A DNA stretch of 64,000 bases from Antedon mediterranea. Taxonomy: Eukaryota > Echinodermata > Crinoidea > Comatulida > Antedonidae. Position numbers and translations under genes: made by a program. The DNA is taken from positions 3,332,288 through 3,396,287 of the forward strand of contig NC_092676.1 in the NCBI RefSeq assembly GCF_964355755.1, read 5' to 3'. The notes beneath the pieces are model-generated. The model did not search any database. It was not told where the DNA came from and saw only the letters and a program-made list of their open reading frames with translations. Position 1 is the first letter of the stretch, and every line of letters starts with the position of its first letter. Positions 2,758 to 64,000 of the stretch are shown one piece after another.

Positions 2758-4653
2758 ATGGTTCATCATCAACATTGGGCATTGCTGTTTTACAAGTGCT
2801 TGATTATATTGTTTAGTATTTTTCACTGCTGTTGTGCAGCACGATCCTATAATTTTACAAAACAACCAGAATCTGTTCTTGTTGGACAAGGAATCACAGC
2901 AACATTATCATGTGAATGGGCACCAGCATTGAAGGAAACACATACGGTTGCATGGTCAGCATTCCCACGTGGTGGTACGTCTCATCTAATTGAAAGTTCA
3001 ACATCAAAATACAATCTAACAACTAAAGCAACCTTATCATATCTTTCCATTTTCAATGTTGGTTACAATGATGTAGGAAAATACAGGTGTGATATCTCGG
3101 ATGACAGTTTCAGTCTTTCTAAAGAGGCTTCTGTAGTTCTAGGAGAAATAGTGTGCAATCCAAAGAATGGCAATGATGAGATTGGAACAACGCTGACATG
3201 TTCTTTTACTTCTTCTCATCCTTCAAATAATATTGATTTACATTTGTATAAAGATGGACAATCAAATAAAACAGAAGTAAAACTACAACATAATAATATG
3301 TTAGAATCAAGGGATTTGACTGCCGAAGACTATGGAGTTCTATTTATGTGTAAAGCTACATTAGGAGGTGATGTGATAGGAACTTGTGAAACTACTCCGC
3401 TGCTGCCCATAGATGCAGAGATTGAACAATCACCACCAGGTACACTTCAGGTTGGTGATAGCTTCAACCTTACATGCTCAGCGAAAGGTAATCCTGATTA
3501 TTATGAATATGAATGGGCGTGGAATGACAAACCTGTACAATCTTCACCAAGCAAAAGACGATTTGCAATAGGTAATGTGCTTACTGTAGAGAGTGTATCA
3601 AGCAAAGCCAATGGCAAAATAGTTAATTGTACTATTAGTCGTGAAGATCGTAACAGTAGTATAGCAACCTATACAGTGAAAGTTTTAGAGCAAATGACTA
3701 CACGTTTGCAGTCGACATCTGGTACGCGTACGCGCAACTCAATTACGCGTCAACTATCAACCAACCTCCCTGATGACGAGTCCCCAAAAGTAACGACTAC
3801 ACGTTTACAGTCGACACTAGGTACACGTACGTACAAGCCAATTACCGTCAGACTATCAGAAACTAATTTCCAGGATAATGATTCTACAATTGTAATCATT
3901 GTCATCATTGGCGGAGTTGCGATAGCTCTTGTGAGTTTGATAACAGCATTTATAATTTACTTTTTAAAGAAAAGGCACAAGAAACAGTACGACAAAGAAG
4001 AGACAAAACCCGAAAATGTACCATTGGAAAAACCAGTGTACGGTAACACAGAACAAAACATTAACAGTTCTGAAATAGATAATGACCTATGTGAAAATGT
4101 GGAGACAATGTACGCAGAACCTGACATGTCAGAAAATGGTTGGCATATCAAATATAACACGCCACAGAATGCAGTAAACATTCATAAAACTGATGATTCT
4201 TTAGGTAAGTCAATGAAACCTAATGGAACGAGTGATGCTAAGCCGAGAAAAACGACAAGTGCCGAAAGTACAGATGCAATACAAGTAAAACCGATCAAGG
4301 CCCACAGTAAAGAAATTATTGAAGATTTGTATTCTAAGCCCAACAAACGGAATGCGAAAACGCTGATCGAGGCCCACAGCCAAGAGAATATTGAAGATCT
4401 GTATACTAGGCCTAATAAACCGACTGCAAGCAGACCAACCAAGGCCCACAATGTTAAAGAAAGTCTGGAAGATCTGTATTCTAAGCCCAACAAACCAACG
4501 ACAAGAACGCCAGAAATTACGCACGAAGATCCTACTAAGAAAAATGTAGAAGGCTTATCGTACGCAGAAATAGAGTTTAAAAGCGGTACGTTCCCAGCTC
4601 CTGGACCACAGGACTACGGGCTTGATTACGCAACTGTACAGATTAAGAAGTAA
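2758..4653 (+). CDS. G1: three-Ig transmembrane receptor, class A tail with ITIM pair
   Basis: Predicted 631-residue type I membrane receptor encoded without introns. The start at 2758 (MVHHQHW) aligns with MAHHQ/MYHQH starts of the paralogues; an in-frame ATG 18 bp upstream is less likely. Signal peptide about 1-27. Ig1: Cys52 and Cys111 in DVGKYRC. Ig2: Cys133, 148, 198 and 210, with TAEDYGVLFMC. Ig3: Cys240 and Cys291. Thr/Ser-rich stalk 312-375; membrane helix about 377-403. The tail has YGNT (428), YAEP (452), YNTP (466), then three 24-residue repeats with DLYSKP/DLYTRP (525, 549, 573), and ends with ITIM-type LSYAEI (602) and LDYATV (624). In known families ITIMs recruit SHP-type phosphatases and pYxxP binds Crk/Nck SH2 domains; that use here is inference. 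AATAAA lies at 4958-4963. Confidence 0.9.
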   Translation: MVHHQHWALLFYKCLIILFSIFHCCCAARSYNFTKQPESVLVGQGITATLSCEWAPALKETHTVAWSAFPRGGTSHLIESSTSKYNLTTKATLSYLSIFNVGYNDVGKYRCDISDDSFSLSKEASVVLGEIVCNPKNGNDEIGTTLTCSFTSSHPSNNIDLHLYKDGQSNKTEVKLQHNNMLESRDLTAEDYGVLFMCKATLGGDVIGTCETTPLLPIDAEIEQSPPGTLQVGDSFNLTCSAKGNPDYYEYEWAWNDKPVQSSPSKRRFAIGNVLTVESVSSKANGKIVNCTISREDRNSSIATYTVKVLEQMTTRLQSTSGTRTRNSITRQLSTNLPDDESPKVTTTRLQSTLGTRTYKPITVRLSETNFQDNDSTIVIIVIIGGVAIALVSLITAFIIYFLKKRHKKQYDKEETKPENVPLEKPVYGNTEQNINSSEIDNDLCENVETMYAEPDMSENGWHIKYNTPQNAVNIHKTDDSLGKSMKPNGTSDAKPRKTTSAESTDAIQVKPIKAHSKEIIEDLYSKPNKRNAKTLIEAHSQENIEDLYTRPNKPTASRPTKAHNVKESLEDLYSKPNKPTTRTPEITHEDPTKKNVEGLSYAEIEFKSGTFPAPGPQDYGLDYATVQIKK

Positions 4654-5211
4654 GGTGATATTGTTACGTAACCGTTACGTATTTACCGTTTACGTTGTAA
4701 CATATTTTAATACGTTTATCATTAACACATGTTGCAGAAATCAATATTAATCAACCTTCGGTATGTGACCTTACCATTTGGTCAAATCGCTCGTGACAGT
4801 TTTATGCAATGTGTATGTAGGCCTAAGATTAAAACAGAAGATTTAAAATAACAGCCATTATCTACGTTAACGCGGATTGTTGTTGCAGAGTTGTTTCTGT
4901 AACTTTGTATACAGTTTTTCATATAATTGACATAAAGTACCATAATATTCTATGATAAATAAATACATAAATAGCCTGGATGCATTACAGCCACTATAAA
5001 TATATAATTTAATAAAAGAACACTTGTTGGTAATTGTAAATATTACAGATGTACAGTCAAATAACTCTTAGATATCATAGCTTTAAATCCGTTTACTTAA
5101 TAATAGACGTATTGTAGTTGAATTCGGTTGCTTATCTATTTTGGTATTTAATTTAAAATAATCAATCTTGTATTATGTCGGCCTAATTAACCTTGCGCAT
5201 ATAAATAAGTT

Positions 5212-5348
5212 ACTTAATATATTTTTTTATTTTAAAGAAACCGATGTAGGCCTACAGTATACCGTATTTTAATGAATACTACTTAATATATTTTCTATTT
5301 TAAAGAAACTGATGTAAACCTATACCGTTGTATTTTAATGAATACTAG
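5212..5348 (+). repeat. 69-bp tandem duplication
   Basis: Two copies of a unit starting ACTTAATATATTTT and ending TTTTAATGAATACT. Copy one contains TAGGCCTAC where copy two reads TAAACCTAT. Confidence 0.75.
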
Positions 5349-9052: not shown

Positions 9053-9243
9053 AACCCAGAAGGCAAACAACGATACTTATCTGTTTCATCCTTCAACCAG
9101 GAAGCTCTGAATCCCTGCTTCAACTGTGGTGAGAATGGACATGTGCAGAGGATATGTCGTCATAAAGCACCGATTACATGCTGGAAATGTAACTCTGTAG
9201 GAGATAAGGCTAAGTTTTGCCAAGCATTTTATGATTACTAGGA
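9053..9243 (+). pseudogene. Zinc-knuckle end of LINE ORF1, cut off by in-frame TGA
   Basis: Same frame as the upstream ORF1. It reads CFNCGENGHVQRICRH then CWKCNSVGDKAKFC, giving one clear CCHC knuckle and one in which His is replaced. It ends at a TAG at 9241-9243. Confidence 0.65.
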
Positions 9244-9274
9244 AATAGGCAATGAGGGTTTAGCCGTAAATTCT

Positions 9275-21425: not shown

Positions 21426-23125
21426 ATGGCTCATTCTCAATATTGGACATTGCTGTTCTTCAAGTTTCTGATTATATTTCATATATCTCACTGTTGTCGT
21501 GCACAGTACTACAATTTTACAGAACATCCACAATCGGTTCTCGTGTGACGCTATCGTGTCAATGGACACCAGCATTGAATAACAACCATCTCGTAACATG
21601 GAAATACGATCGTGTTAATAGTCCTAAACGAATTGAAATTTCAGATACAAAATACGCATTAATGAACGAAGCAACATCTTCAAGCCTTTCCATTTCTAAT
21701 GTTGGCTCTGGTGACGTAGGCAACTACATTTGTGAGATCTTCGAATGTGATTCATACAACAGTGTCTCATCTTCTACATTTGCTTCTCTAGTATTAGGAG
21801 AATTGATATGTAATCCGGAGAATATTGTTGATATAGGAACAACGCTGATATGCTCCTTCACCTCTTCTGATAATTCATATATTATTAATTTACTATGGTA
21901 TAACAACGGAAAACAAATAACTTCGGGACAACAACAAAACAATGATTTAGAATCAACGGCTATGACTGCCGAAGACGAAGGAGGTGTATTTACTTGTAAA
22001 GCCACCATCGGATTTCAAAGTCAAGCGACAGGAACTTGTGAAACTACTCCACTAGTATTTCCAATAGATGCAGAGATTCAACAATCACCACCAGGTCCAC
22101 TTCAGGTTGGTGATAGCTTTAATCTTACCTGCGTAGGGAAAGGTAATCCAGAAAATTATAATTACGAATGGACGTGGAATAACAACCCAGTAGAATCTAT
22201 GACAGATAGTCGATTTGCAATTGGCAATATGGTTATTGTGAATACTGTATCAGGCAGTGACAATGGCAAAATGGTTTCTTGTACTATTAGTAGTGGTGGT
22301 TACAGAAGTATAGCGAGCTATACAATAAACATTTTGGATCAGACGTCGAGTACAACTACAAGTATGTCGACACCAGATAGGCCTACACGTACGCAAAAAC
22401 CAATTACGGCGGTCAGACTCACCATACCTGATGACCCGGATGACATTTCAACAACAGTAATGACTACACGTTTAAAGTCGACACTAGATACACGTACGCA
22501 AAAACCAATTACGGTCAGACTCACAACACATAATGTTCCGGATGACATTTCAACAGCAGCAATGACTACACCAGGTACACGTTTGCAAAAACCAATTACA
22601 CATCAACTCACAACACATAAAGTCTCGGAAGACGTTTCCGCAACAGTAGACCTAATGAATACACGTTTAAACACAACACCTGTTACTGTAACGCGTTCTA
22701 TTACAGAAATCCTAACGGTTGTAATTATCGTAGTTGCAATTTTACTCGTCGTTTCTTTGATAATAATAATAAGCCTATGTGTTTATTTGCAAAAAAGAAA
22801 AAAGAAAAACACAACTCCTTCAAATCGACTGTCAAATAATCTTGAGCACGTTTACTATGACATTACGTCATCTAGCGCACACGTGACCTCGACAGCCAGT
22901 AACACTAAGTATGATTATGTCATACACCCGTTCACACGAAATACGGAAGAATCCACTCCTGAGTACCTTGAATTGGACGATGGTTTCCAAGATGGCGCAC
23001 CAAAATCAGCAAGTAATACAGCCGCTGATTACGATGATGTTGCATCGGAACAAACAGATACTAATAACAAAGAGTACAAATACGAAAACGGTATGCTGCG
23101 GGATAAAGGTATCAGAGAGACATAA
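21426..23125 (+). pseudogene. G2: three-Ig receptor, class B-like tail, frameshifted after the signal peptide
   Basis: The signal peptide starts at 21426 (MAHSQYWTLL) and is in frame up to SVLV, where a TGA at about 21546 ends it. Compared with paralogues, 16 bp are missing just before the Ig1 LSC motif, so Ig1-tail is in another frame (open to 23125). That frame extends upstream to an ATG at 21404, but its first about 45 codons are the signal peptide read out of frame. Ig1, four-Cys Ig2 and Ig3 are otherwise preserved. The long Thr-rich stalk holds about three TRTQKPIT repeats (22378-22650). Membrane helix TVVIIVVAILLVVSLII. Tail sites: YYDI, KYDYV, EYLEL, DYDDV, YENG. Probably dead or recently broken. 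Confidence 0.8.
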
Positions 23126-25977: not shown

Positions 25978-26736
25978 AGCTCAGGTACAGGCATGAATTT
26001 TAAATATAATATCTGGTTAATTGTACATAAATCAAATATTTGTAACAGAAATCAAGACGAAAAAACATGAATTTCCCTTAATATAGTCAAATACAAAATT
26101 TGGCAAAATTCTGCCATAAAAACCAGGAAGACTTTTTTTCAGTAGTTAGGTAGTATAACCTAATGTAATAAAATTATCTGGTGACTCCCTAGAAAGTGAA
26201 ACAAGATGGTGGATATACGGTGGATAATTTTTGCTATAGCATGAAAATAAAAATCTGAAGTTGAATAAAAATACCAGAAATGTAAAATTCAAGTTATATT
26301 ACCTATATTTAGTCATCTGATAACATTTTTTACCACACCGTTTATTTTTCATAGCTTTTTAAAATGCCTCTCTATTTACAAAATTTGTGTTCAAAATAAT
26401 AGAGATTTTACTGTGTAATTTGAACTATCCCCCCACTGATAAGAAAGTGCTTATTTTCAATAAGCTCGTGTAACACAAATAAAATCCCAAAAAATTATGA
26501 AACATAGGGGAAACTATAGATCGATAATTATTGGAATGTATGATCAATAGAAATTGTTTGCCCGCACCTGGCCTTTAAGGAAAGGAATTATAATATATGT
26601 ACCCTAAATGATATAAGGAATACAAACTTACATTGGCTAAAAAGTTGTATGGTACACCCTAAACATTGGACTATGGTATTTTACAAAATTATGCTTGATT
26701 ACATTTAAGTATTATACACTTGTTAAAAACCACCGA
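25978..26736. other. Intergenic, nothing recognised
   Basis: AT-rich sequence with no convincing frame, repeat pair or RNA gene. Confidence 0.5.
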
Positions 26737-26830
26737 TATCGGTTATCGTTGCAAAAAGACAAATAACAAAGTCATCGTGTGAATGGGCACCAGAAGTTTA
26801 TGCAAACGATGTACTGAATTATGGTATAGA
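26737..26830 (+). pseudogene. Ig1 relic of a lost receptor gene
   Basis: Matches the receptor Ig1 start: TCGGTTATCGTTGCA, then AAGTCATCGTGTGAATGGGC and CACCAGAAG, corresponding to SVLVA..SCEWAP. It lacks a signal peptide and the rest of the domain, and is out of frame. GCAAACGATGTA is shared with the inverted relic at 41.1 kb. Confidence 0.6.
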
Positions 26831-29043: not shown

Positions 29044-29416
29044 AGACAACATAATTCCTTTAAATAGACCACCGAATAATATTGAACACAATTACGATTA
29101 CATTGTGTCTTCAGACACACAGATCAACACGACAGGCAAAGACACACACACGTATGATTATGCCATATATCCGTGTACACGAATCACAGAGAACATCAGT
29201 GCTGAATACATTGAAGTAGAAGACAGTTCCCATGAGGGCCCACAAAAACCAGAACAAAATATGACCGCAGTCGAGAACGATGATGTTTCCTTACAACCAA
29301 CGGATATTTGCAGCAAAGAGGCCATGTACGAAAATGGTAAATTGCGTATCAAAGGCATAGCAACTTCTGACAAGGTGACAATTAAGTACGAAAATATTAA
29401 AACATCTACGCGTTAG
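29044..29416 (+). pseudogene. G3 class B tail, out of frame
   Basis: The +1 frame encodes the full class B tail: VSRDNIIPLNRP, HNYDYI, TYDYAIYP, AEYIEVED, MYENGKL, IKYENIKTSTR and stop. Near-identical to the G7 tail, with no other damage, so the frameshift at about 29024-29034 is recent or an artefact. Confidence 0.85.
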
Positions 29417-30554: not shown

Positions 30555-30913
30555 TGTAACCAAAAAAAAAATGAATATGACTGTGTAAAATCAGCAGACA
30601 ATCAAAACGATAAAATGACTGAAACAGACAGTGAAAATGAGTATGATTATGTGGAAACATCAAACATAGGCTCCATAGTAAAAGAAGGCACTGCAGAATA
30701 TATTGAGGGTGTTGATGACAACACTGATGCTGATTCCTTGACTGCCCTACTATAAACAGAAACTAATAGGGCTACTGTGGCTGAGTACAATGATGCTTCA
30801 ATACCACTAAACTAATTTCAATAAATACTAGAAAAATGATAAAGGTATCTGGACTTCGACGTATACGAAAACGCATCTGTACGCACAAAACCACTGAAGT
30901 CTGCAAGGAAATA
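30555..30913 (+). pseudogene. Orphan class C tail downstream of G3
   Basis: Reads EYDCVKSADNQ, DSENEYDYVETS and AEYIEGVDD, then a TAA (30753) where the copy at 56.0 kb has AAA. After more indels it ends DVYENASVRTKPLKSARK and TAG at 30911. No Ig or membrane segment precedes it. Confidence 0.7.
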
Positions 30914-37795: not shown

Positions 37796-37840
37796 CTTTC
37801 AGAAGGAGAAACACATAAAAACAAATAAATAAATCCTTTG

Positions 37841-38261: not shown

Positions 38262-38282
38262 TAAAAATGTATTTGTTACTTT

Positions 38283-38467
38283 TTATTTGATTCTTTTTCA
38301 TAAAAGTGCTAATTCTAAGATGTGGTGTTCAGAATAAATGTTGGGAGTTAAAATACAAGGCGGGTGCAAAAGATAAATATTTGTAATCTTAGTTCTTGGG
38401 TCTTAGCTTTCGTGATCTTAGGTCTTAGGGTGTCTTAGCTTTCGTGGTCTTAGGTTTCGTGACACCC
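38283..38467 (+). repeat. 185-bp direct repeat, right copy
   Basis: By eye identical to 35860-36044. The two copies bracket about 2.24 kb. Confidence 0.85.
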
Positions 38468-42483: not shown

Positions 42484-44783
42484 ATGGCTCATCATCAACA
42501 TTGTACATTGCTGATCGTTATATTGTATACAATTTTTTTACTGCTGTTGTGCACAAACCTATACTTTTACAAAACATCCACAATCGGTTCTCGTTACGGA
42601 AGGGCAAACAGCAACGTTGTCGTGTGAATGGACACCAGCACCAACACATGACGTTTTATGGTCTTTTTTCCCTCGTGTTGGTACGCCTAAATTAATTGAA
42701 AGTTTAACATTAAAATACAATGTAATAAGTAAAGCAACATCTTCAAATCTTTCCATTTTTAATGTTTATTCTGATGACGTAGGAAGATACAGATGTGATA
42801 TCTTGGATGGTGATTCATACAGTCTTTCTGAACTTGCTTCTGTTTAGTGCTAGCAGAAATAACGTGCAATCCAGAGAATGGCAATGGTGAGATAGGAACA
42901 ACGCTGAAATGTTCTTATATTTTGTCTCATCCGTTAGATAATGTTGATTTATTATGGTACAGATATGGAAGTGTAATTGAATCACATCACAAACAAATGC
43001 ATGTTTTAGAATCAAGGGTTTTGACTGCCGAAGACGATGGAGCTGTATTTACTTGTAAAGCCACAATGGGATCTCAAGTGATAGGAACTTGTGAAACTAC
43101 TCCGCTAATATTGAACATAGATGCAGAGATTGAACAATCACCACCAGGTCCACTTCAGGTTGGTGATAGCTTTAACCTCACGTGCTTTGGGAAAGGTAGT
43201 CCTGATCCTGGTAATTATATTTATGAATGGATATGGAACAACATTTCTGTAGATTCTTTGAAAAGTAATTGGCGATTTGCAATAAGCAATGTATTTACTG
43301 TGAAGAGTGCGACAACCAAAGACAATGGTGAAATAGTTACTTGTACTGTCAGTCGTGATGGACGTGACAGCAGTACAGCGAGCTATATAATAATAAAACA
43401 TTTCGGAGATTCCATTGAGTATATTAACTACACCTTTGCAATATTCTGTTACAGACCTATTACCATCAACCAATGTCTCGGACGACGAACCTCCAAAACT
43501 AACGATTGTCGTTGGTGTCGTAGCTCTTGTGATTTTGATAACAGCAATTATAATATACTTTTTACACAGAAGGCGCAAGAGCAATCAGTACGTCAACAAA
43601 ACAAAACCAATGACCCTACAATTACAGCCAAATTGTGGTCACATGGAACAACAAATTACATTTGTTGACAACAGAAATATACAAACTTCAGCAAGCAAGA
43701 GTCTAACACACAAGATACCAGTATGCATGAAAACCCTACCGTGTCAGCACAGGACACAATAAAAGAAAAGTATTATATGGTATCGGTAGACATTCACAAC
43801 CATGGAATCACTACAACATGCAACAGAAATGAATGTGATAGTGTGGATTTAACAACAGACAAGCACAATACTAAAATGGCAGCTGAAAGAGACAGCCAAA
43901 ATGACTGTGATTATGTGGAGTCAGCAACAGACAATCACAACATTGAAACCATCACATCAGGTAGCGTAAATGAGTATGATTATGTGGAAACATCATGCAA
44001 TGGAGCTAGAGTGAAGACTATCGGAAAAAACATTGAACTTGCCGATGACAACAGCAATTGTCCCAAGAGAAAGCCACTGAAAACAGAGAATAATAAGCCT
44101 ACAACGACTAAGTACAATAATGATTCAATGTCACAAGCAGATGTTTCCAGAAATGCCAGAGCTAATGATGAATTGTCCAAAAACAGTAAATTGCATCACC
44201 TCAAAGATATCACAAGCATGGCAACATCTGACGACCAGAACATGTATGAAAATGTTAAAATGCCGCGATTGAGGAAAGATAAAGTACTGCTTACAGTTAC
44301 AGGCAGTAGAGAAGATGACGTCACCACGGTACACGACGTGAATACAAAACCCAATACAAACGTGTACGAAAATTTATTTATTTTTTATTTATTTTCCACA
44401 TTTATTTAGTCATCAATTACAGTACATCATAATTACAGTACAACTGAAAACAGGGATCCTGCATAAAAAAGCTGTAGCTTCGTTTTTTTGTAGGACCCTT
44501 TGCTTCGATGTCAAAAACATGTGTTTCCAGAAAAAACAGAACCAACGATAAAGAGGCTGAGTATGAAAACAGTAAACTGCATCTTAAAGATATCACAAGC
44601 CTGACAACATCTGACGACCAGAACATGTACGAAAATGTGAAACGTGTGTTACGGAGACTGAGAAAAGATGGAGTAACCGTCATGGACAACCGCGAGGATG
44701 ACGTCACCCTAGTGCACGCGAATACACATGTGTACAAAAATGCACCAATACGAACAAAAGCAGTGAAGTCTGCTAAGAAATAA
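42484..44783 (+). pseudogene. G5: three-Ig receptor pseudogene, class C tail with duplicated end
   Basis: ATG at 42484 (MAHHQHCTLL). A +1 T in the signal peptide (about 42531), a +2 insertion at the end of Ig1 (42843, GTTTAG for GTAG) and a shift after Ig3 (about 43390) break the frame. Pieces: Ig1 to 42847; Ig2 and Ig3 42848-43390; stalk, membrane helix (LTIVVGVVALVILITAIIIYF) and near tail to 43762; far tail 43723-44370 with KYYMV, CDYVES, NEYDYVETS and MYENVK. The last about 110 codons of the tail occur twice (44120-44370 and 44510-44783), separated by about 140 bp of foreign AT-rich DNA. Closest relative of G8. Confidence 0.82.
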
Positions 44784-45630: not shown

Positions 45631-45634
45631 AATG

Positions 45635-47201: not shown

Positions 47202-48911
47202 ATGACTCATCATCATTGCTTGCTGTGCCTGATTGTATTGTGTAGTATATTTTACGAATGTTTTGCACAAACATATGTCTTCACAGAAGACCCGAAATCG
47301 GTTCTTGTTGCTGAAGGAAACCCAACAATTCTATCGTGCGCATGGAGGCCAGAATTGGATGAACGAAATACCTTTCAATGGTCATTTTTCCCTCAGAATG
47401 GTGGTGAGCCTCAATCAATTAGAATGTCAAATTCAAAATACAATCTAACAACCGACGCAACATCTTCGAATATTTTCATTTCCAATGTTGATTCTAATTA
47501 CGCGGGAAAATACAGGTGTGATATCAGACACGGCGATACAGACATTCTTTCTAAACTGGCTACTGTAGTGCTAGGAGAAATAACGTGCAATCCAGAATAT
47601 GATAATGGTGAAATAGGAACAACGATGACATGTTCTTATACTTCTTCTTATCTTTCAAATTTGATTTATTTACAATGGTATAAATCAGAAGAACAAGTAC
47701 AATTAGACACCCAAGACAAACACGTTATAGAATCAATATTTTTGACTGCAGAAGACGATAGAGCTGTATTTACTTGTAAAGCTATACTCGAAAATCAAGT
47801 GATAGGAACTTGTGAAACTACTCCGCTAATACTGACTATAGATGCAGAGATTGAACAATCACCACCAGGTCCACTTCAGGTTGGAGATAGCTTTAACCTT
47901 ACCTGCTCAGGGAAAGGTAATCCTGATTATTATAATTATACATGGATGTGGAATGACAAACATGTAGGATCGTCGCCAGATAAAAAAAGATTTGCAATAG
48001 GTAATGTGCTTACTATGACAAGTGTATCAAGCAGTGCTAACGGCAAAACAGTTACTTGTACTATTAGTCGTGATGGTCGTAACAGCAGTACAGTGAGCTA
48101 TACAATAAATGTTGCAGAAAATACGCAAAGTACAACTGCACGTTCACGCACAACACAAGGTAGGCCTACTGGTACAGACCTACTATCAGCAACAACATTA
48201 TTATCAACCAAACTATCAGCAAACAATGTCACGTACGACGAGCCACAAACATTGATTATTGTCATTGGCGTAGTTGCAACAGTTATTGTGATTTTGATAA
48301 CAGCAATTGTAATTTACATTTTACATAAAAGGCGTAAGAAACAGGATGGCAACAAAACAAAACCCGAAAGTGTACCATTGAAAGAACCAATGTATGGTAA
48401 CACTGATCAAGACATTAACACTTCTGAAAAATCATGCGTACAAAATGGCCCTCGGAGTGAAAAGTTGACAACAGATTTTACAGTATATGATGAGCCTACG
48501 ATTTCAAGTTCAAATACTCAGTTGGATACTATGTACGCCGAACCTGATACGTTAGTAACTGGTCACGATGCTAGGTATGACACGCCACGGAACGCTATAA
48601 GTCTTGATAATGTCGATACAGCGAATACTGATGAAGCGAATGATGCAAAGCCAAGAAAAACAAAAAGCAGAGAAAGTATAGATGCAATGTACGCGAAACC
48701 GAACAAATCTCGCAGTACAGAAAGTATTGATGATCTGTATGCTACGCCCAACAAACCGACTGCAAGAACGCCAGTGATTACCCGTGAAGATCCTACTAAG
48801 AAAAACATAGAAGGTCTAACATACGCAGATATAGAGTTTAAAGGCGGTACGTTTCCAAACCCTGAACCACAGGACTACGGACTTGATTACGCAACCGTAC
48901 AGATTAAGTAG
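47202..48911 (+). CDS. G6: three-Ig transmembrane receptor, class A tail with ITIM pair
   Basis: 569 residues, uninterrupted. Signal peptide about 1-22 (MTHHHCLLCL..CFA). Ig1 Cys46-Cys106 (AGKYRC, where Ala replaces Asp-Val); Ig2 Cys129, 144, 192, 204; Ig3 Cys235-Cys286. Short stalk 305-348 with an NVT glycosylation site. Membrane helix about 350-374, then HKRRKK. Tail tyrosines: MYGN (398), VYDEP (429), MYAEP (445), RYDTP (459), MYAKP (497), LYATP (513), ITIM LTYADI (541) and LDYATV (563). The ITIMs are 18 residues apart, as in G1. The ectodomain is closest to G4, whose tail is class B, so tail and ectodomain have recombined. Probably an inhibitory/adaptor-docking receptor at the cell surface (inference). 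Confidence 0.92.
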   Translation: MTHHHCLLCLIVLCSIFYECFAQTYVFTEDPKSVLVAEGNPTILSCAWRPELDERNTFQWSFFPQNGGEPQSIRMSNSKYNLTTDATSSNIFISNVDSNYAGKYRCDIRHGDTDILSKLATVVLGEITCNPEYDNGEIGTTMTCSYTSSYLSNLIYLQWYKSEEQVQLDTQDKHVIESIFLTAEDDRAVFTCKAILENQVIGTCETTPLILTIDAEIEQSPPGPLQVGDSFNLTCSGKGNPDYYNYTWMWNDKHVGSSPDKKRFAIGNVLTMTSVSSSANGKTVTCTISRDGRNSSTVSYTINVAENTQSTTARSRTTQGRPTGTDLLSATTLLSTKLSANNVTYDEPQTLIIVIGVVATVIVILITAIVIYILHKRRKKQDGNKTKPESVPLKEPMYGNTDQDINTSEKSCVQNGPRSEKLTTDFTVYDEPTISSSNTQLDTMYAEPDTLVTGHDARYDTPRNAISLDNVDTANTDEANDAKPRKTKSRESIDAMYAKPNKSRSTESIDDLYATPNKPTARTPVITREDPTKKNIEGLTYADIEFKGGTFPNPEPQDYGLDYATVQIK

Positions 48912-52594: not shown

Positions 52595-54094
52595 ATGGCT
52601 CATCCCCAACATTGGACATTGCTATTTTACAAGAAGTGTCTGATTATATATTATAGTATATTTTACTGCTGTTATGCACGATCTTATACTTTTACAAAAC
52701 ATCCACAATCAGTTCTCGTTGCAGAAGGACAAACAGCAACGTTGTCATGTGCATGGTCACCAGCATTGAATGGAAACCATGATTTTGCATGGTCTTATTT
52801 TCGACCTGGTATTAACATTCAACGAATTGATGGTTTAAATGCAAGATACAATATAATAAATGAAGCAACCTTTTCAAATCTTTCCATTTTCAATGTTGGC
52901 TCTTTTGAAGTAGGAAGATACAGGTGTGATATCTTTGACGATGACGCTTCATACATTCTTTCTGAGCAGGCTGTTGTAGTGCTAGGAGAAATATCGTGCA
53001 ATCCAGAATACGACAATGGTGAAATAGGAACAACGATGGCATGTTCTTATATTTCCTCTTATAATGTTAATGCTATTGATTTATTATTTTATAAGAACGG
53101 AAAAATAATTACATCAGAAGTACAAGATAATGTTTTAGAATCAAGGGCTTTGACTAGCGAAGACGATGGAGCTGTATTTACTTGTAAAGCTATACTCGAA
53201 AATCAAGTGATAGGAACTTGTGAAACTACTCCCCTAATATTGCCTATATATGCAGAGATTGAACAATCACCACCAGGTACACTTCAGGTTGGAGAAAGCT
53301 TTAATCTTACCTGCTCAGGGAAAGGTAATCTTGATTACTATGAATATGAATGGATGTGGAGTGGCAAACCTGTAGGATCGTCACCAAATGAAAGGTCATT
53401 TGCAATAGGTAACATGTTTATTGTGAAGGATGTATCAAGCAATGCCAATGGCAACATAATTACTTGTACCATTAGTCGTAGTGGTCGTAACAGCAGTACA
53501 GCGAGGTATACAATAAACGTTCTAGAGAATATTTCGAGTAGGCCTACAACACCAGGTAGACGTACGCAACAAGTCGTTACTGACAAATTCTCAGCAACTA
53601 ATATCTCATCGGGTGACGAGCCCCCAACACTAATGGTTGTAATTAGTGTACTTGCAATTTTACTCGTACTTTTTGTAATAACAACAATATACATGTATTT
53701 GCAAAAAAGAAACGTATCTAGGGACAACATAATTCCTTTAAATAGACCATCGAATAATATTGGACACAATTACGATTATGTTGCGTCTTCAGACACACAG
53801 ATCACCACGACAGGCAATGACACATACACGTATGATTATGCCATATATCCGTGTACACGTATCGCAGAGAACATTAGTGCTGAATACATTGAAGTAGAAG
53901 AGAGTTTCCATGATGGCCCACAAAAACCAGAACGAAATATGACCACATTCGAGAACGATGATGTGTCCTTACAAGCAACGGATATTTGCAGCAAAGAGGC
54001 CACGTACGAAAATGGTAAATTGCGTATCAAAGGCATAGCAACTTCTGACAAGGTGACAATTAAGTACGAAAATATTAAAACATCTACGCGTTAG
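52595..54094 (+). CDS. G7: three-Ig transmembrane receptor, class B tail
   Basis: 499 residues from MAHPQHWTLL (an in-frame ATG 36 bp upstream has no homology). Signal peptide about 1-28. Ig1 Cys52-Cys111 (EVGRYRC); Ig2 Cys135, 150, 197, 209; Ig3 Cys240-Cys291. Short Thr-rich stalk 312-345; membrane helix about 346-368, then LQKRNVSRDN. Tail: HNYDYVAS (393/395), TYTYDYAIYP (411-418), AEYIEV (431), TYENG (471) and IKYENI (491), the last matching the ITIM consensus. YEN fits Grb2-type SH2 binding (family knowledge; not shown here). It is the only intact class B gene in the window and the reference for damage in G3 and G4. Confidence 0.92.
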   Translation: MAHPQHWTLLFYKKCLIIYYSIFYCCYARSYTFTKHPQSVLVAEGQTATLSCAWSPALNGNHDFAWSYFRPGINIQRIDGLNARYNIINEATFSNLSIFNVGSFEVGRYRCDIFDDDASYILSEQAVVVLGEISCNPEYDNGEIGTTMACSYISSYNVNAIDLLFYKNGKIITSEVQDNVLESRALTSEDDGAVFTCKAILENQVIGTCETTPLILPIYAEIEQSPPGTLQVGESFNLTCSGKGNLDYYEYEWMWSGKPVGSSPNERSFAIGNMFIVKDVSSNANGNIITCTISRSGRNSSTARYTINVLENISSRPTTPGRRTQQVVTDKFSATNISSGDEPPTLMVVISVLAILLVLFVITTIYMYLQKRNVSRDNIIPLNRPSNNIGHNYDYVASSDTQITTTGNDTYTYDYAIYPCTRIAENISAEYIEVEESFHDGPQKPERNMTTFENDDVSLQATDICSKEATYENGKLRIKGIATSDKVTIKYENIKTSTR

Positions 54095-55924: not shown

Positions 55925-56303
55925 AAAAAAAAATTAATATGACTGTGTAAAATCAGCAGACAATCAAAACGATAAAATGACTGAAACAGACAGTGAAAAT
56001 GAGTATGATTATGTGGAAACATCAGGCATAGGCGTCAAAGAAGGCTCTGCAGAATACATTGAGGTTGTTGATGACACTGATGCTGATTCCATGATTGCAC
56101 TACTAAAAACAGAAACTAGTAGGCCTACTGTGGCTGAGTACAATGATGCTTCAATACAACAAAACTATATTTCAATAAATATTAGAGAAAATGATAAAGA
56201 GGCTGAGTTCGAAAACAGTAAATTACATCGTGTTAAAGGTATCTTCGACGTATACGAAAACGCATCTGTACGCACAAAACCACTGAAGTCTGCAAGGAAA
56301 TAG
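55925..56303 (+). pseudogene. Orphan class C tail downstream of G7 (open frame)
   Basis: From the ATG at 55977 it is open for 108 codons: SENEYDYVETSGIG, AEYIEVVDDTD, AEYNDAS, NYISI, AEFENSKL, DVYENASVRTKPLKSARK, stop. No signal peptide, Ig or membrane segment. It could be an unused relic or a 3' exon for an alternative tail of G7; the sequence cannot decide. Confidence 0.65.
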
Positions 56304-56935
56304 AAGAAGCAAAACAGAACCAAACGTAAGATCAAAAACAACGATGAAAACTTCACCAAACAATACATTACATCAAATACCTCTTTAAAAAAATAAATAT
56401 CTGCCATTTCAGTTTCCCAGGTATGATCTATTAAGGCTTTTGTTAAGTGAACTTTCACTTTTTCCAAAATACTCATAATTTGACAAAATAAGCAATAATT
56501 ACTAAATCATACGTTGAAATGTACAGTAATTAATTGGTTTGATGTTTAAGAAAATAAAATGAAATAAATTAGAGAGATGAATATTAACCAGAAAATAGAA
56601 GAGTAGGAAGTCCTAGAAAATAATTAGCAAGAATTGAAATCGTACAGGAAAAAAAGTCAGCAAACATAAGCATTCTAACGTGATCGTCAAAATGGTCTAT
56701 GATGGTTCTCTCTAAAACCTCGACTATACGTCATTAGATTTATATAAATATAATAATTATAACTAATAAACTTTAAGCAAGAACTAAATTGTTAAGTTAT
56801 TTACACGTTACAAGTTTCTAATTTTGTGAATATACATTTAATAAAATAATTGTACCAGGTATTACGAACGTTGGAAAGAAAGCTATCTTACACTTTAGTA
56901 ATTTTTATTAAAAGATAGAGAACAACTTTAACTTC
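56304..56935. other. Receptor 3' flank repeats
   Basis: No gene. It carries the AAAATGGTCTATGATGG repeat (about 56689) and the flank common to 30.9-31.3 kb. Confidence 0.5.
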
Positions 56936-57360: not shown

Positions 57361-59638
57361 ATGGCTCATCATCAACATTGTACATTGCTGATGGTTATAT
57401 TGTATACTATGTTTTACTGCTGCTGTGCACAAACCTATACTTTTACAAAACATCCACAATCGGTTCTCGTTAAGGCTGGTTTCCTGTCGACGTAAGAACA
57501 TCACTTTTGTTGCGACTACGTCGATATGTCGTAAGAAATGCGGATTTTACAGGAAACCGATTACGATCAAAAATTTATAAAATCGACGCAACGTAAGAAA
57601 AATGGTAACGACAAACGATTTTACAGGAAACCGATGACCTAACAATTGTTGCGTTACGACGTTTTCTTCCGATTTTACAGGAAACCGGGATTTTTTATCT
57701 TACGCTTGAATGAACGCCCTTGCGTCACGTTTCTTACGTCTCTTACGAAAGTTGACTTGAAGTCAACTTTCGCAAGAGACGTAAGCGCAATCGTAACAAG
57801 TAACCAATGAACGACAAGGGTTATGACGTAATGTGTATGTCCTTATAGTGAAATAAAGCCGGACAATAACATTTGTATGTATTTACTACTATAATTTTAG
57901 TCCACTTTACGATGTTGTACATACTTTACAAATGCACAGTAGTTTCAATATAGGCCTAATAATTTTCTAATCAGGGAGTTTACAACTCATATCAAAATAT
58001 AATACTCTTATTTATGGACGTGCAATAAACAATCAGCATCGGTAGAAACGTCGCGAAAATGAACATTTGCAACAAGATAAGATATAGAAAGCCCCTTTGT
58101 AAGCAATAATATATTATTATGTAACTTTAAAAAAAAATTGTTTGCTTGATTTTGTATAATTTATATTGTTTTGTTAAATTTATTCTCATGCTCGATTAGA
58201 TATGCTTATAGGCCCATAGGCCAATGCCTAGTCTAGGGCCTAGGTCTAATAATAATAATAGGAATCTCGAAATGATTTGCCTTTTTTTAATTTTGAAAAC
58301 TATTTAAGGCTAGGCCTAGAGGGCCAGGATAATTAATTCATATGTTGATTCATACAAATAATACATAGGCCTACTAGCCTAGGCTAGGGGCCTAGGCTAG
58401 TTTGATTGTTTGGTCAAATCAATTCCTATTAGTACAGTATTAATTAAGTATTTTACTAATACTAGGGCCTAGCCTATCTACTGAAAATAACATGTTGGTG
58501 TGCTGCACTGACACTGCTGCTGAGTAGCTACAGGTACAATAACAACATTCAACATTTCGCGCGAAAAATGATAAAACCCGCTCTAAAAAGAAACACCAAT
58601 CAGAGATGTTGTTTCAAATACGTCATAAATCCGACCGACGTAAGAAAAAAATTTCAACTTTCGTAACAACACTAAAATCGACGTAAGCATACGACGTGTG
58701 TTTCACAGCCAAAATTTCAACTTTCGGGAGCAGCATAACTACAGATGTTTCTCTGCGGCCCGACACGATCTTGACTAAGGTCAACGACGTCAATTTTTTC
58801 TCAACTTTCGTAAGAGACGTAAGAAACGTATGAAACGCAAGAATCGTTGCAAAATTCGACTTCTTACGTCGACAGGAAACCAGCCTTTAAGGAAGGACAA
58901 ACAGCAACGTTGTCGTGTGAATGGACAACAGCACCAACACATGACGTTTTCTGGTCTTTTTTTCGCTCGTGTTGGTACGCCTAAATTAATTGAAAGTTTA
59001 ACATTAAAATACAATGTAACAAGTAAAGCAACATCTTCAAATCTTTCCATTTTTAATGTTGATTCTGATGACGTAGGAAGCTTAAGATACAGATGTGATA
59101 TCTTGGATAGTGATTCATACAGTCTTTCTGAACTTGCTTCTGTAGTGCTAGCAGAAATAACGTGCAATCCAGAGAATGGCAATGGTGAGATAGGAACAAC
59201 GCTGACATGTTCTTATATTTTGTCTCATCCGTTAGATAATGTTGATTTATTATGGTACAGATATGGAAGTGTAATTGAATCACATCACAAACAAATGCAT
59301 GTTTTAGAATCAAGGGTTTTGACTGCCGAAGACGATGGAGCTGTATTTACTTGTAAAGCCACAATGGGATCTCAAGTGATAGGAACTTGTGAAACTACTC
59401 CGCTAATATTGAACATAGATGCAGAGATTGAACAATAACCACCAGGTCCACTTCAGGTTGGTGATAGCTTTAATCTCACGTGCTTTGGGAAAGGTAGTCC
59501 TGATCCTGGTAATTATATTTATGAATGGATATGGAACAACATTTCTGTAGATTCTTTGAAAAGTAATTGGCGATTTGCAATAAGCAATGTATTTACTGTG
59601 AAGAGTGTGACAACCAAAGACAATGGTGAAATAGTTAC
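57361..59638 (+). pseudogene. G8: receptor pseudogene with transposon in Ig1 and no membrane segment
   Basis: Signal peptide MAHHQHCTLLMVILYTMF..CCCA and SVLV are intact, then a 1.41-kb transposon (57473-58886) interrupts Ig1. After it come EGQTATLSCEWT, a +1 T (about 58962), and Ig1/Ig2 open to a TAA at 59436 (TCA in G5). Ig3 continues in the same frame to GEIVT (59638), where receptor sequence ends abruptly and the P1 upstream block of G9 begins. Stalk, membrane helix and tail are missing. Closest to G5, without sharing all its lesions, so G8 decayed separately. Confidence 0.85.
57473..58886. mobile_element. 1.41-kb inverted-repeat transposon inside G8
   Basis: Ends AGGCTGGTTTCCTGTCGACG and its exact complement at the right. 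TTA flanks both sides (57470-57472, 58887-58889) as a 3-bp duplication; a TTAA reading is also possible. Inner subterminal motifs ACGTAAGAAA and CAGGAAACCG recur. PIF/Harbinger-like is favoured. No transposase. TAGGCCTA tracts at 58200-58400. Confidence 0.8.
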
Positions 59639-59639
59639 T

Positions 59640-60418
59640 CCATCCATTGATGTTTATTTTATCACATTCAGTATCAGTAAAACAAGTTTCTCCACGCCCA
59701 AAAAAAAAAGGGGACGAAAACCAAAATATTATGACAGAATGGAAAGCTAGTAAAAAACGGTATAAAAAACATCTTAATTTAACCGTTAACACGACATTTG
59801 CTACAACAGGAAAGATAAAGTTATGTGGAGTGTTCTAACCAGTCATAGTTAGCATTTTCAACTTAAACTCTCACTGACCACGCCTCCTCTGGAGGAAAAA
59901 TGGCAATGTATTAGGAAAGTATTTTTAAAGTATTACATCATTAATGTTAAATATTCAGTGGTGCTATTTCCCGGTATTTTATTTCTGCAGTAATCAAGTG
60001 TATCACTAGTGCTGAAGTAGATCATTCCAACTTATATAACAACAAAATAAAGACACAAGTACCAACGTTTAATGTTTGACTACGAATACAGGATCTAACC
60101 GTATACGAAGTTATTTAATATTGGAAATAATGTTGGATTAAAGTGTTTATAAACTGAGTACCATTTGTATCATACGTGTGAACAGGCAAACATTATTTAA
60201 TGTCTAAAACATTATTACTGGTGTCTTAGAATCGTCGCAATAAGGAATATAATTTATAGGAATATTTGCGTAAATCTCAATTTTATAAGGAAGTTCCAAT
60301 ATTCGGACGTCAATCGAGGCGCCTGCGTAATACCCTACTATTCCTACTATAACAACGCATGGGAACATCAATCGAACATTATGTCTGATGATATCTAATA
60401 TTGACTACAATGTTTAAA
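59640..60418 (+). promoter_or_regulatory. P1-type upstream block of G9
   Basis: Repeats 2108-2757 of G1. The left edge is the breakpoint with truncated G8. It includes the leader CTCAATTTTATAAGGAAGTT, also present in G2 and G7, and ATAACAACGCATGGGAACAT, which recurs before G10. Confidence 0.65.
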
Positions 60419-62536
60419 ATGTATCATCAACATTGTACATTGCTGTTTTACAAGTGCTTGATTATATTGTATAGTGTATTTCACTGTTGTTGTGCACAAT
60501 CCTATAATTTTACAAAACAACCAAAATCTGTTCTTGTTGGACAAGGAAGGACAGCAACGTTATCGTGTGAATGGAAACCAGCATTGTATGGAAACTATGA
60601 ATTTGCATGGTCATTTTTCCCCGATCAAAGTAGTAAAAACAATCAACGAATTGGAGTTTCAACTTCCAAGTACAATTTAACAAATATAGCAACCTCTGCA
60701 TATCTTTCCATTTTTAATGTTGGTTACAACGATGTAGGGAACTACAGGTGTGATATCTCGGAAGATGGTGGTTTATACAGTCTTTCTGAACTTGCTTCTG
60801 TAGTGCTAGCAGAAATAGTGTGCGATCCAAAAAATGGTGAGATTGGAACAACGCTGACATGTTCTTTTTATTTTTCTTATTATTATTCACGTGATATTGA
60901 TTTACTATGGTATAAAAACAGGAAACAAATTACATCAAAAGTACAAACAAATTATGTTATAAAATCAAGACCTTTGACTGTCGAAGACGATGGAGCTGTA
61001 TTCACTTGTAAAGCCATAATTAGATCTCAACATCAAATGACAGGAACTTGTGAAACTACTCCGCTAGTATTGACTATAGATGCAGAGATTGAACAATCAC
61101 CGCCAGGTACACATCAGGTTGGAGATAGCTTTAACCTTACCTGCTCAGGGAAAGGTAATCCTGATTATTATAATTATGAATGGACGTGGAATGACAAACC
61201 GGTAAGATCGTGGGCAAATGAAAGACGATTTGCAATAGATAATGTGCTTACTGTGAAGAGTGTATCAAGCAGTTACAATGACAAAATAGTTACTTGTACT
61301 ATTAGTCGCAATGGTCGTAACAGTAGTATAGCAACCTATACAGTGAACGTTATAGAGGAAATGACTACACGTTTGCTATCGACATCTGGTACGCGTACGC
61401 GAAACTCAATTACGCGTCAACTATCAACTGACGTCCCTGATGATGAGTCCCCAACCGTAATGACTACACATTTACAGTCGACACTAGGTATACATACACA
61501 CAAGTCAATTACATACATACTATCAGAAACTAATATCCAGGATAATGATTCTACAATAATATTAATTGTCATCATTGGCGTAGTTGCGATATCTCTTGTG
61601 ATTTTGATAACAGCAATTGTAAATTACATTTTACATAAAAGGCGCAAGAAACAGGATGAGAAAAAAACAAAAGCTGAAAGTGTAACATTGAAAGAACCAA
61701 TGTATGGTAACACTGATCAAGAAATTATTAAAACGCGCGTAAATGGCCGTCTGCGCGAAACGTTGATAACAGATTTTGCTGTATATGAAGAACCTGCAAT
61801 GTCAGACACACATGGAAACTTGGATATTGTTTACGAAGCCCATGACGTGCCGCCACACGACCAATTAACAGAAAAAGATAAGTATGATTATGTTACATCA
61901 GAAGAAATGACAGTTGAAATAGAAAGCAAAAACGAGTATGACTATGCAGCAATAGCAGACACCCACAGTGCCGAGATGACAACTGAACGACACAACTATG
62001 ATTATGTGGTATCAGCAGACATCCACATCACAGAAAATGAATATGACGATGTAAAATCAGCAGACGATCAAAGTGATGAAACAGACAGTGAAAATGAATA
62101 CGAGTATGTGGAAACATCAGGAATAGGCGTTACAGAAAAAGAAGGCTCTGCAGAACACATTGAGGTTGTCGATTACAGCGCTGATGACGATCCCAGTAAA
62201 GATTCACTAAAAACAGAAAATACCAGGCCTACAGCTAGCGAGTACAATGATGCTTCAATGTCACACACTTATATTTCCATCAATGATAATGATAATGAAT
62301 CTGAGTACGAAAACAGAAAATTACATCGTCTTAAAGGTATCTCGACTTCTGACAACTCAAAGACCAAATCCGAAAGTGTTAAATTATTACAGAGATCAGG
62401 AAGAGGTGGAATAACCATTTTAGATAACCGCGAGGATGACGTCAGTAAGGTGAATGCGAGTACAGTTGAAGTAAACGACGTGTACGAAAATGCATCGGTA
62501 CGCACAAAAGCAGTGAAGTGTGCTAAGAAAAAATAG
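60419..62536 (+). CDS. G9: three-Ig transmembrane receptor, long class C tail
   Basis: 705 residues from MYHQHCTLLF (an ATG 18 bp upstream is also in frame). Signal peptide about 1-26. Ig1 Cys50-Cys111 (DVGNYRC); Ig2 Cys135, 148, 197, 211; Ig3 Cys242-Cys293. Stalk 315-378; membrane helix about 379-405, then HKRRKK. The near tail matches class A (MYGNTDQ at 429, VYEEP at 456). The far tail is class C: KYDYV (489), EYDYA (507), NYDYV (527), EYDDV (542), EYEYVETS (561), EYND (609), TYISI (618), EYEN (630), VYEN (689). Many YxxV and YxN sites but no C-terminal ITIM pair. A hybrid of class A and C. AATAAA at 62590-62595, 54 bp after the stop. Confidence 0.92.
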   Translation: MYHQHCTLLFYKCLIILYSVFHCCCAQSYNFTKQPKSVLVGQGRTATLSCEWKPALYGNYEFAWSFFPDQSSKNNQRIGVSTSKYNLTNIATSAYLSIFNVGYNDVGNYRCDISEDGGLYSLSELASVVLAEIVCDPKNGEIGTTLTCSFYFSYYYSRDIDLLWYKNRKQITSKVQTNYVIKSRPLTVEDDGAVFTCKAIIRSQHQMTGTCETTPLVLTIDAEIEQSPPGTHQVGDSFNLTCSGKGNPDYYNYEWTWNDKPVRSWANERRFAIDNVLTVKSVSSSYNDKIVTCTISRNGRNSSIATYTVNVIEEMTTRLLSTSGTRTRNSITRQLSTDVPDDESPTVMTTHLQSTLGIHTHKSITYILSETNIQDNDSTIILIVIIGVVAISLVILITAIVNYILHKRRKKQDEKKTKAESVTLKEPMYGNTDQEIIKTRVNGRLRETLITDFAVYEEPAMSDTHGNLDIVYEAHDVPPHDQLTEKDKYDYVTSEEMTVEIESKNEYDYAAIADTHSAEMTTERHNYDYVVSADIHITENEYDDVKSADDQSDETDSENEYEYVETSGIGVTEKEGSAEHIEVVDYSADDDPSKDSLKTENTRPTASEYNDASMSHTYISINDNDNESEYENRKLHRLKGISTSDNSKTKSESVKLLQRSGRGGITILDNREDDVSKVNASTVEVNDVYENASVRTKAVKCAKKK

Positions 62537-62889
62537 AAGCAAAACAGAACCAAACGTAGGCCTACAGACAAAACATTTAAAACTGCATCAATAAATTCAT
62601 AAGAGACATAGATAGATGCACTGTTTCCTATAAGAAGTTTAATCGATATTTTAGTATAGCATTTACTTTAAAAATGAGAGAGAAGTTTATTAAACGTTTT
62701 GATCTTTTATGGATCATAATACACATCGGAATTACAATAAGGAAATTAACTTAAAAAAGCAATGTTTGGAAGTCAGTCAAAGTGCACGAGTCAGTGTACT
62801 ACAGTATTCTATTAGGCATATAACAACGCGTGGGAACATCACAACATTATAATTGTTTATAATTAGCTACATTTAATGCAAAGCTTACA
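62537..62889 (+). other. G9-G10 intergenic
   Basis: Short spacer with the G9 poly(A) signal (62590). The CATATAACAACGCGTGGGAA stretch near 62817 matches the G9 leader region. No GGGGGCG box is seen. Confidence 0.5.
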
Positions 62890-64000
62890 ATGTCTCATCA
62901 TCAATATTGTACATTGCTGTTTTACAAGTGCCTGATTATATTCTATAGTGTATTTCACTGTTGTTCTGCACAATACTATACTTTTACAGAACATCCACAA
63001 TCGGTTCTCGTTACAAAAGGACAAACAGAAACATTATCGTGACAGTCATGTCATTTTCTGGTCAGCATTTCATAGAAGAACGTATACAAGAATTGATAGT
63101 TCAACTTTGAAGTGCAATGTAACAACTAAAGCAAAATCGTCATATCTTTCCATTGTTAATGTTGATTATGATGACGTAGGAAGATACAGGTGTGATATCT
63201 GGAATGGTGGTGATTCATACAATCTTTCACGAGAGGCTTCAGTAGTGTTAGGAGAAATAACGTGCAATCCAGAGAATGACAATGGTGAGATTGGAACAAC
63301 GCTGACATGTTCTTATTTTACTTCTTATTATTCACGTGATATTGATTTACTATGGTATGAAAACAGGAAACAAATTACATGAAAAGTAAAAAAAAAACAA
63401 AGTTACAAAAACAGAAGCGTTGACTGTCGAAGACGATGGAGCTGTATTTACTTGTACAGCCACACTCGCATCTCAACATCAAGTGATAGGAACTTGTGAA
63501 ACTATTCCGCTAGTATTGACTATAGATGCAGAGATTGAACAATCACCACCAGGTCCACTTCAGGTAGGTGATATCTTTAATCTTACCTGCTCAGGGAAAG
63601 GTAATCCTGATTATTATGAATATGAATGGACGTGGAATAACATACCGATACAATCGTCGCCAAGTAAAAGTCGATTTGCAATTGGCAATGTGGTTGTTGT
63701 GAATTGCGTATTAAGCAGTGACAATGGCAAAATAGTTACTTGTACTATTAGTCGTAATGGTCGCAACAGCAGTACAGCGAGCTATACAATAAACGTCTTA
63801 GAGCATGTGTTGAGTAAACCTACATCTTTACAGTCGACATCAAGTACACGTACGTACAAACCCATTACACGTCAAATATCAACAGCAAATGTTCGATATG
63901 ACGTTTCAATGATAGCAGGTTTACACACAGCATCCTTTACTATCACGCAGCATTCCATTACAGACAAAAAGTCCCAAATAGGCCTACAAACGGTTGTCAT
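62890..64000 (+). pseudogene. G10: three-Ig receptor pseudogene, runs off the window
   Basis: ATG at 62890 (MSHHQYCTLLFYK), signal peptide and SVLV intact. A 22-bp deletion in Ig1 removes the CEW region and shifts the frame (TGA at about 63040). Ig1 then reads DVGRYRC in another frame to a TGA at 63380 (TCA in G9). A +1 A in an A-run shifts again, and Ig2-Ig3 and the stalk stay open from 63420 to the window end (FTCTAT, GTCETI, LTCSGKGNP, VTCTIS). Membrane segment and tail lie outside the window. Ectodomain closest to G9. Confidence 0.82.

Follow-up and report, generated by a model that had tools for sequence, protein, structure and literature searches.

A 64-kb stretch of the Antedon mediterranea genome (C7:3332288-3396287, hereafter the window) lies within a tandem array of genes for receptors with three immunoglobulin (Ig) domains and a single coding exon. 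The ectodomains of these receptors have exchanged tails of different classes, and sites in the ectodomains are under positive selection. We regard it as probable that the array is a working, diversifying recognition family of the paired-receptor type, its role probably lying in immunity or allorecognition.

Receptor copies and extent of the array

A tblastn search with six copies as queries revealed ten receptor copies in the window, all on the + strand (Table 1). Their architecture comprises a signal peptide, three Ig domains, a Thr/Ser-rich stalk, one strong membrane helix and a Tyr-rich tail. The initial annotation had described ten same-strand copies sharing every part; number and strand held, while G8 was found to be without stalk, helix and tail and G10 runs past the end of the window. 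The same annotation had listed G1, G6, G7 and G9 as open from start to stop, which was confirmed on the open reading frames (4 of 10 copies), and had called about half of the copies broken. The latter applies to G4, G5, G8 and G10, which are degraded and carry several lesions each, more than G2 and G3, where the frame is broken at one place only. In G3 the loss of the tail frame at the A11 run may reflect either an error in sequencing or truncation in the recent past; its near-identical sister L034 has an in-frame tail of 124 residues.

The genome (354 Mb, 18 contigs) was searched with one protein query at a threshold of E 1e-3, and 77 of 328 first-look candidates were scored, so that the array counts are lower bounds. 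At least 97 matches to the receptor query were obtained, which manual grouping reduced to about 72 places. Of these, about 69 are on the + strand between 3.268 and 3.655 Mb of C7, an array of ~388 kb that extends past both window ends; three further places were located on the - strand of C7, at about 8.90-8.91 Mb. This satellite cluster (C7:8904273-8912651, L043), 5.3 Mb away and in opposite orientation, includes a copy with two Ig domains. No match was found on other contigs among the candidates scored. An uninterrupted three-Ig ectodomain, defined as a match from query residue <=10 to >=302 without a stop, was present in 43 of the about 72 places (hand count). The tandem amplification and the birth-and-death pattern that had been proposed are supported. 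Because only 64 kb had been visible to it, the initial annotation missed the full size of the array, as well as the tail swapping, the selection on the Ig1 face and the two-Ig form described below.

Within the array, C7:3431326-3438563 and C7:3587221-3594926 are similar multi-gene blocks ~156 kb apart (L008/L029 and L009/L030), and L029 and L030 are nearly identical. The two blocks represent either a segmental duplication or an uncollapsed haplotype.

The coding sequence is a single exon

No intervening sequence was found at the joints between signal peptide, Ig1, Ig2, Ig3, stalk, membrane helix and tail. In 15 pairwise comparisons of the open ectodomains of G1, G2, G3, G6, G7 and G9 (the six window copies), all 89 gaps were multiples of three, whereas in pairs of a broken and an open ectodomain this held for 115 of 157 gaps. 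We therefore conclude that the frames are coding and that the coding part is without introns. When the G6 frame was allowed to evolve neutrally in simulation, it was still open in 20 of 2000 runs at 5% divergence and in none of 2000 at either 10% or 15%. The single-exon coding sequence claimed in the initial annotation is thus upheld, with room for an intron in the 5' untranslated region. The ACAG ahead of the G1 start was considered as a signal of such an intron and rejected, since not every copy has kept it.

An ancestral retrocopy, as suggested in the initial annotation, is a hypothesis for the origin of the family. A multi-exon parent gene was not found in the genome search, with 77 of 328 candidates scored. 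The origin gains plausibility from kirrelL, which is likewise an intronless Ig gene of echinoderms and is proposed to have arisen by retrotransposition (PMC8903837).

Tail classes and their motifs

Tails of signalling type, as annotated initially, were found, with YxxP, Y[DE]xV and matches to the consensus of the immunoreceptor tyrosine-based inhibition motif (ITIM). The five in-frame tails of the window (G1, G2, G6, G7 and G9) are 117-308 residues long and contain 9-18 tyrosines. In class A (G1, G6) five YxxP are followed by two C-terminal ITIM-consensus motifs, the number of YxxP ranging from 4 to 7 across the class. Class B (G2, G7) carries YDYV/YDDV/YIEV plus YEN, and in class C (G9) an A-like membrane-proximal stretch is joined to YDYV-type repeats and YEN. 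Compared with shuffled tails, YxxP in G1 and G6 and Y[DE]xV in G9 and G2 stood out. Between the tails of G1 and G6 the aligned Tyr columns are shared in 8 of 8 cases and all columns in 101 of 164. The helix cores (19 residues) of the six window copies are uncharged.

For the family as a whole, 43 loci were fetched from the genome, four of which repeat window copies; 38 fetched loci and the six window copies were scanned, yielding 37 distinct copies with an open ectodomain. After removal of L012, L021 and G3, which have no usable tail, simple motif rules assigned 10 of the remaining 34 copies to class A, 14 to the heterogeneous class B and 10 to class C. Both ITIM-consensus motifs, as matches to the consensus only, occur in 10 of the 34. 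The tails are under constraint, with ratios of nonsynonymous to synonymous substitution (omega) of 0.45 for A, 0.62 for C and 0.43 for B (seven B copies), and likelihood-ratio test (LRT) values for omega below 1 of 33.3, 15.6 and 5.8, respectively.

Tail class conflicts with the ectodomain tree

Exchange of tails between ectodomains has crossed class boundaries, and closely related ectodomains are found on tails of different class in G4/G6 and in G1/G9. G4 and G6 were joined with 100% support in the ectodomain tree, with 100 for Ig1 alone and 91 for Ig2 alone. The identity between the two is 76-93% up to Ig3 and 39-61% past it, and a stretch of 300 nt from the stalk, helix and tail of G4 is 93% identical to G7. 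In the G1/G9 profile, identity falls below 45% past the membrane-proximal part of the tail. The approximately unbiased test rejected a single ectodomain clade both for class A (p 2.2e-4) and for class B (p 2.4e-7), and parsimony (Fitch) placed 12 changes of tail class on the tree of 34 ectodomains, against an average of 16.1 for shuffled labels.

The palindromic octamer TAGGCCTA, which occurs 33 times in the window, marks the start of many B-type stalks among the fetched copies. It lies 17 bp past Ig3 in 8 of 13 copies with a B tail (one more at 44 bp) and is found in the stalk of 1 of 10 class A and 0 of 10 class C copies. From the landmark shared by these eight copies, the unit that moved seems to be stalk, helix and tail together. 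A role of the octamer as a recombination signal at the swap point was rejected in view of this distribution, and it is read as a hitch-hiking marker of the B module.

Positive selection on the ectodomains

Codon models were fitted with our own code rather than PAML. For the six window copies, M2a was preferred over M1a with an LRT of 49.0 and M8 over M7 with 48.6, the maximum in 60 data sets simulated under M1a being 12.9. With separate trees per domain, the LRT was 24.1 for Ig1, 19.7 for Ig2 and 1.7 for Ig3. The 37 copies gave 210 for the whole ectodomain, 81.7 for Ig1 and 85.6 for Ig2. Ig3 shows less synonymous divergence than Ig1, which suggests gene conversion in Ig3.

The whole-ectodomain fit to 37 copies identified nine Ig1 sites with a probability above 0.9 (57, 59, 61, 65, 69, 72, 103, 109 and 113). 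All nine fall in the C-C' or F-G stretches, which make up 33 of 93 residues (p 4e-5, for a region delimited afterwards). An enrichment in the loops corresponding to complementarity-determining regions (CDR), obtained post hoc from six copies (p 0.0014), was set aside in favor of the 37-copy sites. On strands C and F the selected sites should point outward, as their parity is opposite to that of core residues Trp60 and Cys106. The Ig1 sites under selection lie on one predicted face. The C-C'-F-G front face is the binding face of many V-type receptors.

Copies with two Ig domains

Seven matches of the genome search end at query residue 210-214. Five were fetched; the other two are at 3616115, with tail matches ~1 kb downstream, and at 8904273, with one stop. 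All five share a frameshift at the Ig3 border that leads to the ending SIHQCRN or SIHQCRS, and remnants of Ig3 lie downstream in another frame. Their frames are open over 215-220 codons, with a synonymous divergence of 0.18-0.29 in nine of ten pairs and 0.02 in the tenth, and omega between pairs is 0.59-0.90. As they are predicted without Ig3 and membrane anchor, these copies probably encode secreted proteins.

Homology, fold and literature

With one receptor copy as query, a search of 5.8 billion proteins gave no close relative, and a family profile retrieved two weak general Ig proteins at 23-25% identity. A known single-copy multi-exon orthologue was thus not seen. On the six window copies Pfam gave only Ig domains above cut-offs, I-set scoring above V-set. 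A first structure model was poor for Ig3 and a second was used instead, the predicted strands of which fit three Ig sandwiches. Foldseek on the first model returned general Ig matches only. For Ig1 this model ranked LRIG1/PTPRK domains beside antibody V domains, and the second model mostly antibodies, with titin tied.

No description of the family was found in the literature on invertebrate and echinoderm Ig and immune receptors, tail motifs and intronless Toll-like receptors, a weak absence because most of the subscription literature was not covered. Besides the single intronless gene kirrelL, that search gave no echinoderm Ig receptor family of such kind, and the word 'immunoglobulin' is absent from the main text of the brittle star genome paper.

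Other features of the window

Table 1 Receptor copies, fragments and relics in the window, with tail classes by motif
Feature	Position	Strand	Description
Tail-only relic	525..610	+	
G1	2758..4653	+	Intact receptor, 631 aa; class A tail: YGNT, 5 YxxP, two ITIM-consensus motifs (LSYAEI, LDYATV)
G2	21426..23125	+	Signal peptide in other frame (break 21536-21545), open from within Ig1 to tail; class B (YDYV, YDDV, YENG)
N-terminal fragment of further copy	26649..26807	+	Short; tblastn 39% over 61 aa, E 1e-7
G3	27538..29413	+	Frame open as far as membrane helix, with stop at 29043; tail of class B in next frame past A11 run 29024-29034
Tail-only relic	30568..30979	+	Downstream of G3
G4	34416..35859	+	Broken; ectodomain sister of G6, yet G7-like class B stalk-helix-tail; element adjoins end at 35860
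G5	42484..44409	+	Broken copy; tail class C-like
G6	47202..48911	+	Intact receptor, 569 aa; class A tail: 5 YxxP, ITIM-consensus motifs LTYADI, LDYATV
G7	52595..54094	+	Intact receptor, 499 aa; class B tail: YDYV, YIEV, YENG, YENI
Tail-only relic	55930..56368	+	Downstream of G7; homologous to relic after G3
G8	57361..59648	+	Broken near-copy of G5 (96-97% over two stretches); ~1.4 kb insertion; without stalk, membrane helix and tail
G9	60419..62536	+	Intact receptor, 705 aa; tail of class C: A-like next to the membrane, followed by four Y[DE]xV, YENR, YENA
G10	62890..64000	+	Broken copy, cut by window end

The tail pieces after G3 and G7 were considered as spare alternative tail exons; they are read as relics, because the first contains in-frame stops and neither shows a helix or ectodomain. 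The element at the G4 tail end (35860-38467) has direct end repeats of 185 bp that are 100% identical (35860-36044 and 38283-38467). Enclosed by them, in inverted orientation, is a piece from the end of a class B tail (37510-37722), which is complementary to the tails of G3 and G7 at 95-96%. The spacer before G6 contains a 331-bp tandem duplication (45629-46291, 99% identity).

A LINE-like (long interspersed nuclear element) pair of open reading frames, encoding an endonuclease and, in the first frame, an esterase-like protein, is located at 7832-10450, and two open pieces of a gypsy element within 12908-19056 (polyprotein 12908-15931, integrase 18052-19056). Among the best 120 of 633 matches of the latter, the best named relatives are from Lytechinus variegatus (61%) and Patiria miniata (59%); the first named mollusc or cnidarian records reach only 43%, and many unnamed matches are better than that. 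These matches fit an echinoderm host, with the caveat that transposable elements can move between hosts. Rfam and tRNA scans of the window found nothing, and NCBIfam gave nothing above cut-off.

Proposed function and alternative explanations

In the reading that we favor, a paired-receptor-type recognition family, the single-exon type I receptors would recognize variable ligands, non-self or allo-self, via the C-C'-F-G face of Ig1, and interchangeable tails would turn ligand binding into different signals. ITIMs recruit SHP phosphatases. Once phosphorylated, class A tails, with two ITIM-consensus tyrosines and 4-7 YxxP, may thus recruit SHP-type phosphatases and CRK-type adaptors as SH2 partners, and class B and C tails (YDxV, YxN) NCK/GRB2-type adaptors leading to actin or activation responses (for the relation of tail motifs to CRK and NCK/GRB2 adaptors, see PMC5043372 and PMC12203975). 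Recombination between intronless copies would give an ectodomain a new stalk-helix-tail module, so that specificity and signal polarity could evolve separately, as in paired receptors. The putative secreted copies perhaps act as decoys.

A more specific version can be put forward only tentatively. The array may be a germline recombination system for receptor polarity, in which exchange or conversion at the Ig3/stalk border re-pairs recognition with ITIM/YxxP or YDxV/YxN modules, an Ig2/Ig3 frameshift generates secreted decoys, and a large repertoire for recognizing allo-self or pathogens, with a logic like that of vertebrate natural killer cell receptors, arises from an intronless founder. Ordinary unequal exchange or conversion could re-pair modules because each copy is one uninterrupted exon.

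Several points weigh against the paired-receptor reading. The pairing of G4 with G6 was not recovered in the Ig3 tree, and 30 of 2000 label shuffles needed 12 changes or fewer; as so few were as low as observed, the tail classes keep some phylogenetic signal, and their changes are repeated, not random. ITIM counts are just mildly above those of shuffled tails (p 0.02-0.04), the YDxV count of G7 and the YxN counts in general are not significant by the same comparison, and the average omega of the matching ectodomains is also below 1 (A 0.71, C 0.73, B 0.59). The null simulations represent six copies on one tree without gene conversion and do not extend to the 37-copy fit. Without gap-adjacent codons the six-copy LRT falls to 15.6 for Ig1, 13.5 for Ig2 and 23.0 for the whole ectodomain. 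In the 37-copy fit Ig3 is significant as well (LRT 12.9, p 0.0016), so that selection extends beyond Ig1-Ig2. The limits of the C-C'/F-G region were set after the sites were known, with residue 119 counted as Ig2; the Ig1-only fit gave 13 sites, including residue 43 on strand B outside the region and residue 62 with inward parity; and plain loops defined by DSSP are not enriched in the six-copy sites (6 of 10, p 0.24). The evidence on Ig1 being of V or I type is mixed, we know of no colonial fusion in echinoderms that would need histocompatibility, and expression, ligand and phosphorylation are predictions from sequence.

An unlikely alternative is a lineage-specific expansion of kirrelL-like homophilic adhesion or fusion proteins, with nephrin-like actin-coupling tails and no immune role. 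Class B and C tails do carry YDxV as in nephrin, and kirrelL offers a precedent for an intronless echinoderm Ig membrane gene of proposed retrotransposition origin (PMC8903837, in part). About 72 places, positive selection and swaps of ITIM-bearing tails are, however, unlike a skeletogenic fusion protein, and the protein searches (E 1e-3), in a database with at least some echinoderm proteins, returned no kirrelL record, kirrelL itself not being compared directly. A family mediating gamete or sperm-egg recognition and shaped by sexual conflict would have the same anatomy and selection, together with gonad expression. Tandem duplication with positive selection is also known in reproductive proteins, and the selection evidence cannot separate immunity from fertilization; we nevertheless consider this very unlikely, as contrasting tail modules and secreted-looking two-Ig forms would better fit signalling immune receptors. 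Likewise very unlikely is a decaying array of mostly non-functional copies, with omega raised by relaxed constraint and some of the differences due to faults of assembly such as uncollapsed haplotypes or homopolymer errors. In its favor, an open three-Ig ectodomain is missing from about 29 of 72 places (by hand count, with two-Ig rows among the 29), G3 differs at its A11 run and pairs such as L029/L030 are nearly identical, but every gap between the open window ectodomains keeps the frame, omega above 1 is supported at specific sites while tail omega is below 1, and neutrally simulated frames do not stay open.

Comparison with known receptor systems

By description, the closest working analogue of the paired-receptor-type family proposed here would be the fester co-receptors (FcoR) of Botryllus schlosseri, followed by Hydractinia Alr and vertebrate paired receptors. 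In the available text on FcoR (PMC12065747), 53 loci are reported, plasticity is ascribed to the link between binding and signal polarity, and some loci exchange ITIM and hemITAM via splicing. Like the array, FcoR form a large clustered type I family with Ig domains (V and C2 in FcoR) and long tails with ITIM or activating-type tyrosines. Unlike the array, with its three Ig domains, single coding exon and tails that change between genes, FcoR contain a sushi domain, have fester genes as partners and at some loci swap motifs by alternative splicing; the FcoR layout of a V Ig, a sushi and two C2 Ig domains was not found in the six window copies, where Pfam detects Ig domains alone. Alr resembles the array in being a family of 41 Ig receptors within a single allorecognition complex (PMC11999971, in part), with candidate genes that carry ITIM or the corresponding activation motif, ITAM (PMC12065747, in part). 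Unlike the Antedon array, Alr is cnidarian, and the likeness is one of description and not of gene structure or exact motifs. Protein searches with a receptor copy or the profile gave no Alr among the listed matches, no Alr sequence being compared. The invertebrate Ig receptor CgIgIT2 of oyster likewise combines an immunoreceptor Tyr motif with an immune function, but is a mollusc protein with five Ig domains (PMC11999971, in part). Unlike the array, kirrelL, present in all echinoderms examined in its source, is described there as serving skeletogenic cell fusion; in the available text of PMC8903837 an ITIM/YxxP array is not mentioned, and 'paralog' and 'duplicat' are absent.

With vertebrate paired receptors (KIR/LILR, SIRP, Siglec) the array shares tandem arrangement, related ectodomains with inhibitory versus activating modules, and birth and death; by their ITIM consensus, 10 of the 34 classed copies are candidate inhibitory-type members. 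Paired receptors differ in being multi-exon and in that activating members use a charged helix and DAP12-type adaptors, whereas here both tail classes bear motifs of their own. A charged membrane residue for an ITAM adaptor was not found in the helix cores of the six window copies.

Vertebrates have families of diversified Ig receptors in which both inhibitory and activating tails occur. Such families are likewise described in ascidians and cnidarians, in the available parts of PMC12065747 and PMC11999971. If the paired-receptor reading is true, the array is a candidate self/non-self receptor complex of an echinoderm. Its single-exon form suggests how new combinations of ectodomain and signal polarity can arise with no need for splicing or exon shuffling, and the locus makes testable how recognition families keep specificity and output independent.

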